Positions 20,597 to 38,373 of a DNA stretch of 64,000 bases are shown here, piece after piece (positions within the stretch are counted from its first letter, which is position 1; each line of letters starts with the position of its first letter). This DNA comes from Candidatus Nitrosopumilus sediminis (GTDB taxonomy: Archaea; Thermoproteota; Nitrososphaeria; Nitrososphaerales; Nitrosopumilaceae): assembly GCF_000299395.1 (NCBI RefSeq), contig NC_018656.1, forward strand, positions 62,001 to 126,000, given 5' to 3'. The position numbers and the translations under genes are program-made. The notes under the pieces are model-generated. The model was not told the DNA's origin. It saw only the letters and a list, made by a program, of their open reading frames with translations, and made no database searches.

Positions 20597-20618
20597 GATT
20601 TTAACAAGGTAGGTTTCT

Positions 20619-20693
20619 GGGCTCATAGTCCAGGTCGGTTATGACGTCGCCCTTACACGGCGAAGATCCGGGGTTCAAATCCCCGTGGGCCCA
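20619..20693 (+). tRNA. tRNA-Val (anticodon TAC)
   Basis: A 75-nt cloverleaf: acceptor GGGCTCA/TGGGCCC plus A73, D arm GTC/GAC, anticodon stem TCGCC/GGCGA around CTTACAC (anticodon TAC), T stem CGGGG/CCCCG with loop TTCAAAT. Its last 19 bases plus 4 flanking bases recur at 22676-22698, so it looks like the attachment target of an integrated element. Confidence 0.95.
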
Positions 20694-20697
20694 TTTT
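20675..20697 (+). repeat. 23-bp direct repeat, copy 1 (3' end of tRNA-Val), att-like
   Basis: Starts at the T loop (TCAAATCCCC), ends TTTT after the discriminator. Identical over 23 bases to 22676-22698, 2,001 bp away. Duplication of a tRNA 3' end is the classic trace of tyrosine-recombinase integration. Confidence 0.85.
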
Positions 20698-20794
20698 ACG
20701 CCTAATTTAATGACTGAAATGAACCATCCTAAAAAATAGATTTTTGAAGTCATTATCTCACAAACTACTTTAAATTAAAAACACAATAAATTTC

Positions 20795-21478
20795 ATGATC
20801 AAAAAAAGTCCAAAAGATCTCGTTCCAATGTTTTTCAATGATACTTCTAATTCATATGATAAAATAGTAAATTATACTACTTTTGGAAAAGATAGTTTTT
20901 GGAAACATAAAATCCTAGAACAGTTATCTGCTGAAAAAACTGTATTGGATCTTGCTTGTGGTACTGGTATTCTTACAAAACAAATTGCAGAAAAACTCCC
21001 TCATGCAGAAATAATGGGTGTAGATGTTACCAAAAACTATCTTGAAAAAGCAAAAGAAAAGTTAATTTCATTTCAAAAAGTATCTTTTGTGAATCAAGAT
21101 GCTGAAAAACTTGATCTAGGAAAAAAATTTGACTGTATTACTGCATCATACTTGCCAAAATATTGTATATCTGATGTTCTGGTCAAAAATTGTATAAATC
21201 ATCTTAATGATGGTGGAAAAATGGTTTTACATGATTTTACATATCCAAAAAATAAATTAGTTCAAAAACTATGGGATTTTTATTTCAAAGTTCTTTATTT
21301 AATAGGATTCTTTATCCCTAATTGGAAACAAGTTTTCCTTGATCTACCTAATCTAATAAAAACCACAAATTGGGTAGAAGATTATAAAGAGACTATGAAA
21401 AATTATGGTCTAAAAATACATACACAAGATTTGACATGGGGATCTTCAACTATTATTGTTGGAACTAAGATTGTCTAA
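20795..21478 (+). CDS. UbiE/MenG-like SAM methyltransferase
   Basis: 227 aa. VPMFFNDTSNSYDKIVNYTTFGKDSFWK resembles the opening of UbiE/COQ5 C-methyltransferases, followed by motif I VLDLACGTGIL, the acidic MGVDVT, and motif II/III segments FDCITASYLPKY and GGKMVLHDFTYP. A hydrophobic stretch near residue 165 (VLYLIGFFIPNW) is typical where the substrate is a membrane lipid. UbiE enzymes methylate the ring of prenylated quinones. The two other genes of the islet look like UbiC and UbiA functions, which strengthens this assignment; the actual product is unknown. Its 3' end overlaps the next convergent gene by 33 bp. Confidence 0.68.
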   Translation: MIKKSPKDLVPMFFNDTSNSYDKIVNYTTFGKDSFWKHKILEQLSAEKTVLDLACGTGILTKQIAEKLPHAEIMGVDVTKNYLEKAKEKLISFQKVSFVNQDAEKLDLGKKFDCITASYLPKYCISDVLVKNCINHLNDGGKMVLHDFTYPKNKLVQKLWDFYFKVLYLIGFFIPNWKQVFLDLPNLIKTTNWVEDYKETMKNYGLKIHTQDLTWGSSTIIVGTKIV

Positions 21479-21883
21479 TCTTATTTCTTCTATAATGTTA
21501 AACCAAATTATTCCATTATGAATAATCTCATATTCTCTTGTTACTTTGCTCTCATCATGATTACGATTCAAGGAAATTATCTTTCTAGTAGCATTGATCT
21601 TATTTGCATTAAGAATATCACCAATACCTTGTTTTTTCTTTAAAATCTCAGCCATAATTAATTCTGGTAAAACAGTAGAGTCAAATTCCACATTAGCTTT
21701 TATCACTGGAAATCCATCTGCAGTAATTGAGACTTTTCTCACAAATTGATTTGGGGTTATGGCATTTTGTTCAATTACTTCTAGTTTGATATTATTATCA
21801 AGAATCTCTCTAAGAATAGTAATTACATTGCCTACTGGAGCATCTAATATTTTATTTAACAGATTCTCAGAAAATTTATTCAT
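21446..21883 (-). CDS. Chorismate pyruvate-lyase-like (UbiC/DUF98 type) protein
   Basis: 145 aa. The order of blocks, namely VIEQN early, FVRKVSITADGFPVIKANVEF, VLPELIMAEILKKKQGIGDIL, then REYEIIHNGIIWFNIIEEI at the end, matches single-domain chorismate lyases that release 4-hydroxybenzoate and pyruvate from chorismate. The early Arg (R in FVRKV) and late Glu (IIEEI) fit the known substrate-binding positions. The call is by pattern only. It is co-directional with the UbiA-like gene 24 bp upstream and convergent with the methyltransferase. Confidence 0.55.
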   Translation of the reverse strand: MNKFSENLLNKILDAPVGNVITILREILDNNIKLEVIEQNAITPNQFVRKVSITADGFPVIKANVEFDSTVLPELIMAEILKKKQGIGDILNANKINATRKIISLNRNHDESKVTREYEIIHNGIIWFNIIEEIRLDNLSSNNNS

Positions 21884-21907
21884 ACTATCTTATCTTATTT
21901 TAATAAA

Positions 21908-22588
21908 TTAAAGGTACCTTAACATGAAAAATAAAATTGTACTAAATATTACACTCAAACTTATGCTTTTTAGAATTATTTCATTTTTGTAATATGTTTT
22001 CTGATTTTCTTTTTTTAGTTGTTTATATTTCCTAGATGTAACTATCAAAATATAACTTAGAAAACCAGCAATTATAGAAAACATAATTGTTTCAACAGTT
22101 ATAGAATTAGATTGAATTACAGCTCCTGCAAAAACAGGTAAAATCCCCCAGGAAATTACAAATGATAAATTATTATGAAATTTACCACGAAATAATTCAA
22201 GATTATATGCAAAAAGAAAAAACCCTTCTGCTATTCCTATAGGAATTAGTAACCAAGAATCTAAAAATGCGTAATACAATCCAATAGAAAAAGATATGAT
22301 TAAGAAAACTATTGCTGTTGACCATAACTTTGAGTGTGATATGTCTCCCCAAGGTTTTTTCTTACTTCCGACTGCATCAAGGCAATGTGCTGATATGCCA
22401 ATTGCAAAAAAATAAAGTAAACTGATGGATGCTAACCTATCCAGACTAAATCCTGCTGAAAGAGAACCCCATATGGCAAAAGATACTACCATTCCAGTGT
22501 ATGGTAGAAATAAAATCCCTATTGATAATCTAAAATTTCTAGAACCAAATTTTGGGACAAACCATTCAGACAATCTGTCTTCTTGCAT
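21908..22588 (-). CDS. UbiA-like integral membrane protein (prenyltransferase candidate)
   Basis: 226 aa with about seven hydrophobic helices. LLYFFAIGISAHCLDAVGSKKKPW sits where UbiA enzymes have the first Asp-rich prenyl-diphosphate site, but only one Asp is retained; the second polar loop near LFRGKFHNN also lacks a clear DxxxD. This is therefore a divergent or degraded UbiA-type protein, and a non-enzymatic membrane protein is possible. Pairing with a chorismate-lyase-like gene (24 bp downstream) is the main support. UbiA proteins attach prenyl chains to aromatic acids. Confidence 0.5.
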   Translation of the reverse strand: MQEDRLSEWFVPKFGSRNFRLSIGILFLPYTGMVVSFAIWGSLSAGFSLDRLASISLLYFFAIGISAHCLDAVGSKKKPWGDISHSKLWSTAIVFLIISFSIGLYYAFLDSWLLIPIGIAEGFFLFAYNLELFRGKFHNNLSFVISWGILPVFAGAVIQSNSITVETIMFSIIAGFLSYILIVTSRKYKQLKKENQKTYYKNEIILKSISLSVIFSTILFFMLRYL

Positions 22589-22675
22589 TACTTTTTAATG
22601 ATAATCTAACATTAAATGATTTGAAAAAATTAATTTCATTCCTAACTGCGTCTCATTTTATCCCCAAAACAGTAG

Positions 22676-22698
22676 TCAAATCCCCGTGGGCCCATTTT
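22676..22698 (+). repeat. 23-bp direct repeat, copy 2 (partial tRNA-Val), att-like
   Basis: Exact copy of 20675-20697 without the rest of the tRNA, so it cannot encode a functional tRNA. Lies 88 bp after the start of the UbiA-like gene in an otherwise featureless AT-rich spacer (22589-22777). Confidence 0.85.
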
Positions 22699-22777
22699 TG
22701 TTCCCAAAAATAGCATTTTGTTGTTGTATCATTTGAACACAATTTACTTTTTGAGGCGATATTCATGACTATGATTT

Positions 22778-22996
22778 GTGCCTAAAAACGATGATAAACT
22801 CACTATTGAATTAGAATGTGAAGAAAAAATTATTTCTGAAAAACACAGGTTTGGACGAGTTCGCTCAAAGATGATGTCTCAATTAAGATCAGAATATGGA
22901 TCAGAAATAGCAAATCGATCATTAGCAAGAATTAACAAAAGGATTTCTCTTGGATCAAAGATGACAAAAATTCATTCTGATGAATTTTCAATCTGA
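22778..22996 (+). CDS. Small basic protein, unknown function
   Basis: 72 aa from GTG 22778. N-terminal acidic strand (KLTIELECEEKI), then a basic helical part (RFGRVRSKMMSQLRSEYGSEIANRSLARINKRISLG). The charge pattern could suit nucleic-acid binding, which is inference. No family recognised. Confidence 0.45.
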   Translation: MPKNDDKLTIELECEEKIISEKHRFGRVRSKMMSQLRSEYGSEIANRSLARINKRISLGSKMTKIHSDEFSI

Positions 22997-23111
22997 AAAT
23001 CATCTCATTTCATTTTAATTCAACTTTGTTCATTCAAGTTCCCTTTCAAGAAAATTTTTTGTTCAAATATACAGCGGTGATTTTATGACAAATTCAATTA
23101 CTGTGTGATTA

Positions 23112-23534
23112 ATGACAAAAAGATTAGCAATAACTGCAATCACAATGTTTGCAATTATGATGGGAATTTCCGCAATCGCTCCTGCAATGGCAGACAAAGC
23201 CACAGCACCAGGACACAACAAAATTGACATTTGTCATTTTGATGATGAGGAAATGCAATATGTTCTAATCAGTATTCCAGAAAAAGCAGTACAAGCTCAT
23301 GAGAAAAACCATGACATGGATATCATTCCAGCACCTGAAGATGGTTGTCCAGTCATTGAACCAGAGCCAGTAGATACTGATGGAGATGGATTAACTGATG
23401 ACGAAGAAATTGTTTTAGGAACTGATCCATTAGTTGCAGATACTGATGAAGGTGGTGTATCTGATGGTCAAGAAGTTCTTGATGGAACTGATCCATTAGA
23501 TGGTTCAGATGATTTGGTGATTATTACACCATAA
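23112..23534 (+). CDS. Secreted calcium-binding protein with thrombospondin type 3-like repeats
   Basis: 140 aa. Signal peptide with hydrophobic core ([19 protein letters not shown]) and cleavage after AMA. Residues about 38-75 form a module starting [10 protein letters not shown] and ending in AHEKNHD-like His/Asp spacing that recurs in exported proteins. The C-terminal 55 residues carry [13 protein letters not shown] and [13 protein letters not shown], typical Ca2+-binding thrombospondin type 3 repeats, with GTDPL following each. Probably extracellular or surface attached; no catalytic motif. Confidence 0.72.
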
Positions 23535-23571
23535 TCTCTTTTTTATTTTTCAATACTTTCTATTTTCATCC

Positions 23572-24810
23572 CTAATTTGGCTGACGCTTAGATAGTAAGA
23601 CACCTACACCCATTGCAAAGAACACTACTAAAGGTACAAACCTGTATGGCTGATTTGTCTGTGTAGTAAAGCCTGTGAGAATTGGTGCAACTAGCAGCAT
23701 TCCTGAGATAAATACCATCATAGATTCTCCATGTTTGACTCCTTTTCTTGATACAATGAAGAGCCCCACCATTAATGGAATCATGAATAGCATTACTGCA
23801 CCATCTGATCTTAACTGGTATGCAAAGGATGTCAAGCCCATCTGAAACTCTTTTGCATCAAATGCTTCCTCTGTGCCTTGTGTCGGAGATAGGCTTCCAG
23901 TAGCTGCCAGTCCTCCAGCTAGAATCATTCCTGCAGTAATACTCGATACTATGATCTTCTGCTTTCTTGGGATCTGACTGCGTAAAATAAAATAAATTGA
24001 CATTGGCAGAAACGCTACAGTTAGTGCCTTTGATAGAATGGATAACATATATGCTACAGGTGAGAGCGGCCAGAATCTATACACTGCATACAGTGATGCC
24101 AAATAAAATAGAATCCAAAAGTTTGTGTAAGACACTGTCGTGTCATATGTTAGAAACACTGAACTCTGCAGTAAAATTATTGTAGATATGATGCCTGCAA
24201 ATCTCTTATTGGTAATCTTTGTTGTAATAAGATATGTTGTGATTAGTAATGCTATGCTTGCAAGAAATGGAATTATCTTGTAGCTTCCAAATAGATTCAT
24301 TGATGCAGACAATAGTGCATATCTTACATGCGGCTCAAATGATGTTATTTTGTCAACTGACCAAGTTTCTAGTCTATTTTTCACTCCAACATAGTCTTCC
24401 AAGTTTTCTTGAGTTGCCAACTCTCCAGCTGATGATATGATATAGATTGTAAGTAATATTACTAAAACTATCAAAGATGTCTTTTTTGATATCTCAAATG
24501 AGAATATCTTTTCAAATAGTTTGGATAGTGCTGGAATCTTTTTTTTGTGGTGGAGTATTGCCAGACTGAAAATTATGATGCTTGTAATAATTACACCACC
24601 AGACCAAACTCCAGTTTCAAACGGATCAGGCGTTATTGGCTGTATCCCTGGAATTCTTACAGTATCTGAAGCTAAAATTAGCGCTGGAAATATCACAGAG
24701 ATGAAGCTAATCAGTACAATTGATATGGAAAATAAAAACACAATCCATGGAATTATGGTGCTATTTGTGCTCGAATCTGTGATTTTGCCTTCCATCAAGA
24801 TCATATTCAT
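23572..24810 (-). CDS. Polytopic membrane protein, GT-C glycosyltransferase-like
   Basis: 412 aa with about eleven hydrophobic helices. After the second helix, a loop with ENLEDYVGVKNRLETW and FEPHVRYALLSASMNLFGSY resembles the external loop of dolichyl-phosphate-sugar-dependent GT-C enzymes, where an acidic residue near the first loop is catalytic. The family match is loose. A role in S-layer or glycolipid glycosylation is suggested by the other glycosyltransferase genes nearby. ATG codons at residues 1, 3 and 6 leave the exact start open. Confidence 0.55.
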   Translation of the reverse strand: MNMILMEGKITDSSTNSTIIPWIVFLFSISIVLISFISVIFPALILASDTVRIPGIQPITPDPFETGVWSGGVIITSIIIFSLAILHHKKKIPALSKLFEKIFSFEISKKTSLIVLVILLTIYIISSAGELATQENLEDYVGVKNRLETWSVDKITSFEPHVRYALLSASMNLFGSYKIIPFLASIALLITTYLITTKITNKRFAGIISTIILLQSSVFLTYDTTVSYTNFWILFYLASLYAVYRFWPLSPVAYMLSILSKALTVAFLPMSIYFILRSQIPRKQKIIVSSITAGMILAGGLAATGSLSPTQGTEEAFDAKEFQMGLTSFAYQLRSDGAVMLFMIPLMVGLFIVSRKGVKHGESMMVFISGMLLVAPILTGFTTQTNQPYRFVPLVVFFAMGVGVLLSKRQPN

Positions 24811-37449: not shown

Positions 37450-38373
37450 TGCAGAATCAACCATTAATGCAATAAATAACACTGCCAAATATGGACTAGA
37501 AAATTTAAACAAAGTCCATGCAGCTTTTTCCATAGGTTTGATTATGACCCATATTGACAATCCTACCATTAATGCCCCTGACGCAATAGCTGTCCATAGA
37601 TACACTGCACCAACCATTTCTTCACCACTTTGAGTTGTAATAAAAAATGGAGCAATAGAAAATAATACCATAACAACTGTTGAAAGTGCAATAGCTCTTG
37701 CAGAAGTTTTTTCTGATTGTACGGCAGTTAACATTGGAACATTTACTTTGTTATAGTCTTCTTTGAAATGTAAAGTGAGTGCCCAAATATGCATTGGAAT
37801 CCAAATAAACACTAATCCAGCCATTGCAAGACCCATAGTCCATAAATCTGACATACTAACAGCTACCCAACCAATCATTGGTGGCGAACCTCCACATAAT
37901 CCTCCCAAAATTATATTGGTTCTAGAATTTCGTTTCAGAACATATGAGTAAATCAGAATGTTGTTTACTAATCCAAACGCAATGAAGGCAGTTGCCCATG
38001 CACCTTGTTCTAATGTAGTAGTAAAAGAAATTCCAAATGCTAAAACTAATGAAATGCCTGCTAATGCTAATCCAAAATTCCTTGCTTTAACTGCCGGATA
38101 GATTCTTTTTGAAGGTAAAGGTCTGTCTTTTGTTCTCTCCATAATAGCATCAATGTCTCTATCATGATAATTTGTTAGAGTATTTGCGGCAGCTGAACCG
38201 GCTGCAACTGAAAATAACATCAGAAGCCATGTTGCTGGAGAAATCTCAATATCATAAATGTTAGATGCTGTTAGTGCTGCACCAAATGCTGTAAAAACTA
38301 GTAAATACCAAATTTTTGGCTTTGTTAATTCATAATAAACTGCTACTCTAGATTCAGATTTTTGTTTTTGCAA
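37444..38373 (-). CDS. ctaB: Heme O synthase (protoheme IX farnesyltransferase)
   Basis: 309 aa with eight or nine membrane helices. The prenyl-diphosphate site NYHDRDIDAIMERTKDRPLP is the diagnostic CtaB/CyoE sequence, and a second acidic loop lies near HFKEDYNKVNVPML. It attaches a farnesyl chain to heme B, making heme O for CtaA (11.7 kb) and the oxidase at 9.2 kb. It is 2 bp downstream of an Lrp/AsnC gene and probably shares its transcript. Confidence 0.92.
   Translation of the reverse strand: MQKQKSESRVAVYYELTKPKIWYLLVFTAFGAALTASNIYDIEISPATWLLMLFSVAAGSAAANTLTNYHDRDIDAIMERTKDRPLPSKRIYPAVKARNFGLALAGISLVLAFGISFTTTLEQGAWATAFIAFGLVNNILIYSYVLKRNSRTNIILGGLCGGSPPMIGWVAVSMSDLWTMGLAMAGLVFIWIPMHIWALTLHFKEDYNKVNVPMLTAVQSEKTSARAIALSTVVMVLFSIAPFFITTQSGEEMVGAVYLWTAIASGALMVGLSIWVIIKPMEKAAWTLFKFSSPYLAVLFIALMVDSAL

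Follow-up and report, generated by a model that had tools for sequence, protein, structure and literature searches.

The window analysed here is a stretch of 64,000 nucleotides from a 1.69-Mb, single-contig genome of Candidatus Nitrosopumilus sediminis (the window genome). It contains a tRNA-Val(TAC) gene whose 3' end recurs as an exact direct repeat, TCAAATCCCCGTGGGCCCATTTT, at a distance of 2,001 bp, and only three genes, the trio considered below, lie between the two copies (Table 1). The labels G and L denote the genomes and loci compared, and C denotes a contig. With the end of the tRNA gene set by ARAGORN, each copy consists of the last 20 tRNA bases and 3 flanking bases; the first-pass annotation was therefore right about the exactness of the repeat and the three genes between its copies, and its division into 19 tRNA bases and 4 flanking ones has to be corrected. 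The repeat is real and a chance origin is ruled out, because the right-hand copy lies within a match to the joining-site model described below (E about 1e-26 in the window) and the same arrangement was found in other species. Homology of this islet with trio loci elsewhere starts at 20745-20795 and stops at 22596-22663. No integrase gene was found among the ORFs of the islet, and the matches of the window genome to the PF00589 profile, which was used for the recombinase search, all lie elsewhere. Of the features that define a tRNA-targeted tyrosine-recombinase element, the islet thus has the flanking direct repeats of the tRNA 3' end and lacks the internal integrase.

Table 1 Features of the tRNA-Val locus and of the adjoining segment (window coordinates)
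Feature	Position	Strand	Remarks
tRNA-Val(TAC)	20618-20694	+	Anchor, attB/attL side; end as set by ARAGORN
23-bp repeat, left copy (attL core)	20675-20697	+	Exact direct repeat
Islet (putative cassette 1)	20698-22675	+	Defined by the repeat and by homology to trio loci elsewhere
UbiE-family SAM methyltransferase, 227 aa	20795-21478	+
UbiC/Rv2949c-like protein, 145 aa, predicted chorismate-lyase fold	21446-21883	-	Stop overlaps methyltransferase stop, convergent
Divergent UbiA-superfamily membrane protein, 226 aa	21908-22588	-	HxLDxxGSKxxPWG replaces NDxxDxxxD
Right arm of joining site	22635-22675	+	Conserved; TTCATTCCTAACTGCGTCTCATTTTATCCCCAAAACAGTAGT
23-bp repeat, right copy (attR core)	22676-22698	+	Exact direct repeat; equals tRNA-Val 3' end
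Cassette 2 (probable)	22699-23584	+	Homologous to site-terminated cassette in G032:C9
72-aa ORF, cassette 2	22778-22996	+
TSP3-repeat protein, 140 aa, cassette 2	23112-23534	+
Possible decayed joining site	23559-23584	+	TCTATTTTCATCCCTAATTTGGCTGA; from G032 alignment only, model hit E = 13

The three activities previously proposed for the trio fared differently. The methyltransferase was supported at the family level, as its score against PF01209 (74.4 bits) passed the cut-off of 20.1; the cut-off of the NCBIfam equivalog was not reached (109.6 against 216). The structure model of the middle gene product (pLDDT 89.6) has the chorismate-lyase fold, and its comparison by Foldseek with AF1396 (E 8.6e-10, TM 0.78) and with E. 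coli chorismate lyase (1fw9; E 3.7e-5, TM 0.59) supported a UbiC-type fold. The Pfam Rv2949c-like score of this protein was below the cut-off (13.7 bits against 22), and 3 of 12 relatives matched that family at E <= 0.1. R49 and E132, putative counterparts of the catalytic Arg and Glu of chorismate lyase, are invariant in 12 UbiC-like sequences and retained in AF1396. The UbiA-like protein matched PF01040 with E 4e-6, below the Pfam cut-off, and carries the motif given in Table 1, together with TSRxYK, where the Asp motifs are expected; the canonical motifs are absent in all 29 aligned relatives. Prenyl transfer by this protein is unproven, because of the sub-threshold match and the missing Asp motifs, and the UbiA-type prenylation proposed earlier was not substantiated. 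Its structure model (pLDDT 49) was too poor for a structure search, and a PDB sequence search gave no match. A canonical UbiA-family gene (141 bits) is located in the window at 37498-38304 on the minus strand, apart from the islet.

Judging from its distribution, the trio is an old, phylum-wide thaumarchaeal cluster and no invention of the islet. The UbiA-like gene occurs throughout Nitrososphaeria and in two Nitrospirota-type bins, and it is accompanied by the methyltransferase gene in 69 of 80 loci and by the UbiC-like gene in about 51 of them. Relatives of the UbiA-like protein in Manganitrophaceae and Troglogloeales bins (L272 and L274) may bear on a quinone-like chemistry shared with ammonia-oxidising archaea. 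A conjugative element of Nitrosocaldus carries UbiC, UbiA and UbiE as cargo with prenyl-lipid genes (PMC5797428), and so, with the trio spread across Nitrososphaeria, the earlier suggestion of a pathway new to mobile DNA or special to this islet could not be maintained. This integrative and conjugative element of Nitrosocaldus cavascurensis resembles the islet in that the same three activities are named on a thaumarchaeal mobile element; it differs in being large and conjugative and in having more lipid genes, the likeness being one of named activities (PMC5797428).

It is somewhat doubtful that the trio represents a compact quinone or prenyl-hydroxybenzoate pathway travelling as a dedicated mobile pathway. 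The chorismate-lyase fold, the UbiE-family methyltransferase, the weak UbiA match and the cargo of the Nitrosocaldus element are in its favour, whereas the Asp motifs missing from every aligned relative and the presence of three canonical UbiA proteins elsewhere in the window genome speak against it, and the quinone reading is unproven. Most likely, the trio serves as an accessory route in which chorismate would be lysed to 4-hydroxybenzoate, followed by modification of 4-hydroxybenzoate or a related lipid, with substrate and product being presumed.

The surroundings of tRNA-Val were compared at 16 fetched Nitrosopumilus loci. Upstream of the tRNA, the genes for a glycosyltransferase and an aspartokinase are retained at every locus whose contig extends so far; the genes directly downstream vary, so that nearly every genome is distinct there, and the distance to the conserved downstream core (genes of 171, 83, 150, about 295 (radical-SAM), 100, 94, 147, 118, 698, and 508 aa) varies as well. 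In the window genome, the core radical-SAM gene lies about 57 kb past tRNA-Val, at C1:139525. The claim that the islet is a tRNA-bounded inserted unit was thus corroborated by downstream neighbourhoods that differ among relatives. At the same time, the observation named in advance as speaking against it, namely the trio at the same place in relatives without a repeat, was made in part: some relatives have the trio near tRNA-Val without the right-hand repeat, and other genera have it within the core behind tRNA-Val, again with no repeat.

Additional copies of the tRNA-Val end were detected downstream of the gene in six species, with three in G022 (four core copies counting tRNA-Val itself) and others in G018, G015, G012, G016 and the window genome, where a solitary copy is also present at C1:1351280. 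Every extra copy is preceded by a conserved arm of ~45 bp, ACGCCTATCTGCGTCCATTTTTATCCCCAAAAAGGTGGCTGAA (consensus CACGCCTATCTGCGTCCATTTTTATCCCCAAAAAGGTGGCTGAA), and the whole joining site comprises roughly 60 bases. A sequence-only model of this site, built partly from loci that were later counted in the census, recognised about 120 sites, many of them degenerate, in 28 of 37 Nitrosopumilus genomes, mostly draft MAGs with contigs that break at repeats. In 24 genomes of other genera, the model gave two matches only, with E about 0.004-0.005, which is near chance. Adjacent sites share their orientation in 28 of 29 pairs when tRNA-Val is counted as a site (binomial P 5.6e-8 under equal odds, the pairs being not fully independent) and are spaced by 0.57-4.6 kb (median 1.3 kb). 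Sites rarely fall inside an ORF (2 of 73), and the gene before the site points at it in a ratio of 53:16, with its stop at a median of 54 bp from the site. Moreover, homology between genomes is broken near non-tRNA sites (within 70 bp) in 5.9% of bins, the background being 1.5%. The occurrence of several units in a row behind one tRNA, with a copy of its end between each and the next, is as expected of an additive island.

The same units recur at different loci. An intact trio with the same gene order was found in eight Nitrosopumilus genomes; it follows tRNA-Val in G003 and the window genome and is surrounded by unrelated genes in G013, G018 and G011/G017. A site follows the trio in at least five relatives. 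This site can be recognised clearly in G016, L201, L206 and the window genome, and a weak or degenerate version of it is present in L200, G003 and G015. Its distance from the UbiA start is about 40 bp in L200, L201 and L206. L203 and L205 have a site at the other end of the trio, beside the methyltransferase gene, and in L205 tRNA-Val follows 1.3 kb further on. The G016 contig starts inside the left end of the trio cassette. No site is present on either side of the trio in four of its eight genomes, which counts against the cassette reading. The L200 contig is labelled Planctomycetaceae, although it carries the trio with a UbiA-like protein 89% identical and a site trace, and is probably a misbinned Nitrosopumilus contig.

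A second example of reuse is a 0.7-kb single-gene cassette common to G012 and G000 at different loci; in G012 the segment lies between two sites and is 86% identical to a site-adjoining segment at C1:1351 kb of the window genome. Directly behind the islet, the pair of genes for the 72-aa and TSP3 proteins (22778-23534) is 77-81% identical to a G032 pair ending in a full site, and the degenerate site trace in Table 1 occupies the position that matches this full site, so the pair is probably a second cassette on the evidence of this alignment. A second array of sites (L060, C1:1343000-1360000; sites 5194, 6098 and 8307 on the minus strand) is located far from any tRNA, adjoining a leucyl-tRNA synthetase gene, and its segments match different loci in different relatives.

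A candidate for the joining enzyme was found in G012, where the first gene behind tRNA-Val (G012:C2:126144-127307) is intact and codes for a tyrosine-recombinase-family protein of 388 aa, which matches PF00589 weakly and shows the Arg, HxxR, GH and C-terminal Tyr in order, as read by eye. In G015, G008, G009 and G010, the gene at this position is truncated and retains the first 18-132 residues, joined to other sequence. In the tRNA-Val recombinase element, the left arm repeats the right arm in inverted orientation (shuffle p <= 0.0005 for G012 and G015; p 0.0025 for G010). In L149 (G007) and L145 (G002), a joining site has a distant tyrosine recombinase, 26-28% identical to that of G012, no more than about 1.5 kb away. 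Among 2.9 million viral contigs, the arm gave two matches, both attributable to chance and inside coding genes of one phage, and no match was obtained for the core, the integrase or the UbiA-like protein; this search thus revealed no carrier of the sites.

By its layout, the islet is an integrase-less cassette, integron-like in arrangement and devoid of a foldable attC site; it is regarded as integrase-less because the recombinase is intact in one relative, truncated in others and absent from the islet. Probably, site-specific recombination placed it at the 3' end of tRNA-Val as a non-autonomous gene cassette, a view suggested by the exact repeat, the conserved arm, the hypervariable tRNA-Val flank, the like-oriented arrays, the reuse of cassettes and the G012 recombinase beside tRNA-Val with the same right arm. 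It appears to belong to a family of small cassettes collected by marine ammonia-oxidising archaea behind tRNA-Val and also at other sites, with the same joining site at the end of each cassette. We tentatively propose that Nitrosopumilus may possess a cassette-capture system that is integron-like in its working and built differently, with a conserved double-stranded joining site, entry at the tRNA-Val 3' end and movement in trans by a tRNA-Val tyrosine recombinase that is lost or fragmentary in most genomes. In this scheme, the tRNA-Val recombinase family, now absent from the window genome or only distantly represented there, would link a circular cassette through its CCCCGTGGGCCCA core with the end of tRNA-Val, and new cassettes would enter beside tRNA-Val, pushing the older ones outward, as in an additive island. 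We infer the action in trans, and current activity is doubtful, because the closest relative of the G012 recombinase in the window genome is only about 31% identical (C1:998 kb). Also counting against the cassette reading are the missing integrase of the islet, the lack of a carrier among the viral contigs and the fact that neither a circular form nor an exact empty site was seen in the genomes examined, mostly draft MAGs.

Alternatively, a single ordinary integrative element at tRNA-Val may have shed its integrase and most of its genes by deletion, leaving the islet behind; the other sites would then be similar remnants, and no cassette would be moving today. The integrase fragments beside tRNA-Val in four genomes document such decay, and many sites are degenerate. 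Nevertheless, we consider this unlikely, since the extent of the trio and its 3' site are unchanged at different loci in several species, and like-oriented arrays with a spacing of 0.6-4.6 kb are unexpected under independent decay.

Still less probable is that the trio is an old resident near tRNA-Val and that the repeat on its right came from a separate neighbouring insertion. This would agree with CSP1-1-like genomes and two other genera, in which the radical-SAM gene and the 100-aa gene of the tRNA-Val core enclose the trio, without repeats. In Nitrosopumilus, however, these two core genes are direct neighbours and the trio is missing or lies at another locus, the core of the window genome is trio-free, and the trio also occurs at unrelated loci. 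Because other genera have the trio near tRNA-Val without a repeat, its association with this tRNA is partly old, and the cassette pool may have acquired a cluster that had been resident near tRNA-Val. In L214, L215, L218 and L220 (Nitrosarchaeum) and in L267-L279 (Nitrososphaerales), the trio or its UbiA gene is found near tRNA-Pro or tRNA-Ala; for tRNA-Pro of Nitrosarchaeum and tRNA-Ala of Nitrososphaera beside the trio, no stretch of 13 or more bases from the 3' half of the tRNA recurred exactly.

The reading of the sites as integron attC, and of the array as an attC cluster without an integron integrase, has a negligible likelihood: the array layout, single orientation and small cassettes do resemble integrons, and archaeal integrons with foldable attC sites are known (PMC9668308), but for both strands of four sites the folding did not surpass that of shuffled sequences (z -0.93 to +0.22), which contradicts an attC identity, the anchor is a tRNA end and not attI, and the related recombinase stands at tRNA-Val with an inverted-arm site.

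Compared with known systems, the cassettes of Nitrosopumilus share with integron cassettes the like-oriented arrays of small units, each ending in a recombination site, and differ in the missing attC-like fold and in the anchorage at tRNA-Val (PMC9668308). The additive flexible islands at tRNA-Lys of Methylopumilus likewise have repeats of the last ~20 tRNA bases and variable small gene groups behind the tRNA, with no integrase needed per unit (PMC10872708); unlike these, the Nitrosopumilus sites have a modellable ~45-bp arm before each core and also occur away from tRNA, and the host is archaeal. Thaumarchaeal integrated elements often use tRNA ends with short att sites, and the cryptic ones are similar to the islet in their hosts, tyrosine recombinases and short att repeats (median 17 bp) in tRNA 3' ends (PMC6563490). 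However, every cryptic element described there has an integrase, by which they are defined, and the smallest is 2.6 kb, whereas the islet is 2.0 kb, has no integrase and stands in a like-oriented array. Tycheposons, as summarised in PMC10872708, are also tRNA-bounded cargo elements of marine streamlined microbes; by that account, they are 4-200 kb in size and have a tyrosine recombinase, unlike the islet. A genus-wide conserved cassette site at tRNA-Val of Nitrosopumilus was not found in the openly accessible papers of PMC that were searched.

Nitrosopumilus and its relatives are among the most abundant marine cells, and little is known about their traffic in accessory genes. With a defined joining site at cassette ends that can be searched for, the mobile gene pool of the genus could be listed directly, and the site could also be put to the test as a second cassette system, built independently, beside integrons.

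Additionally, the stretch of about 57 kb (C1:84700-139500; from 22700 of the window to beyond its end) that splits tRNA-Val from the core in the window genome, the core being close behind tRNA-Val in relatives, contains near its far end histidine-biosynthesis-type genes (C1:130-133 kb) and a weak joining site (C1:136822).
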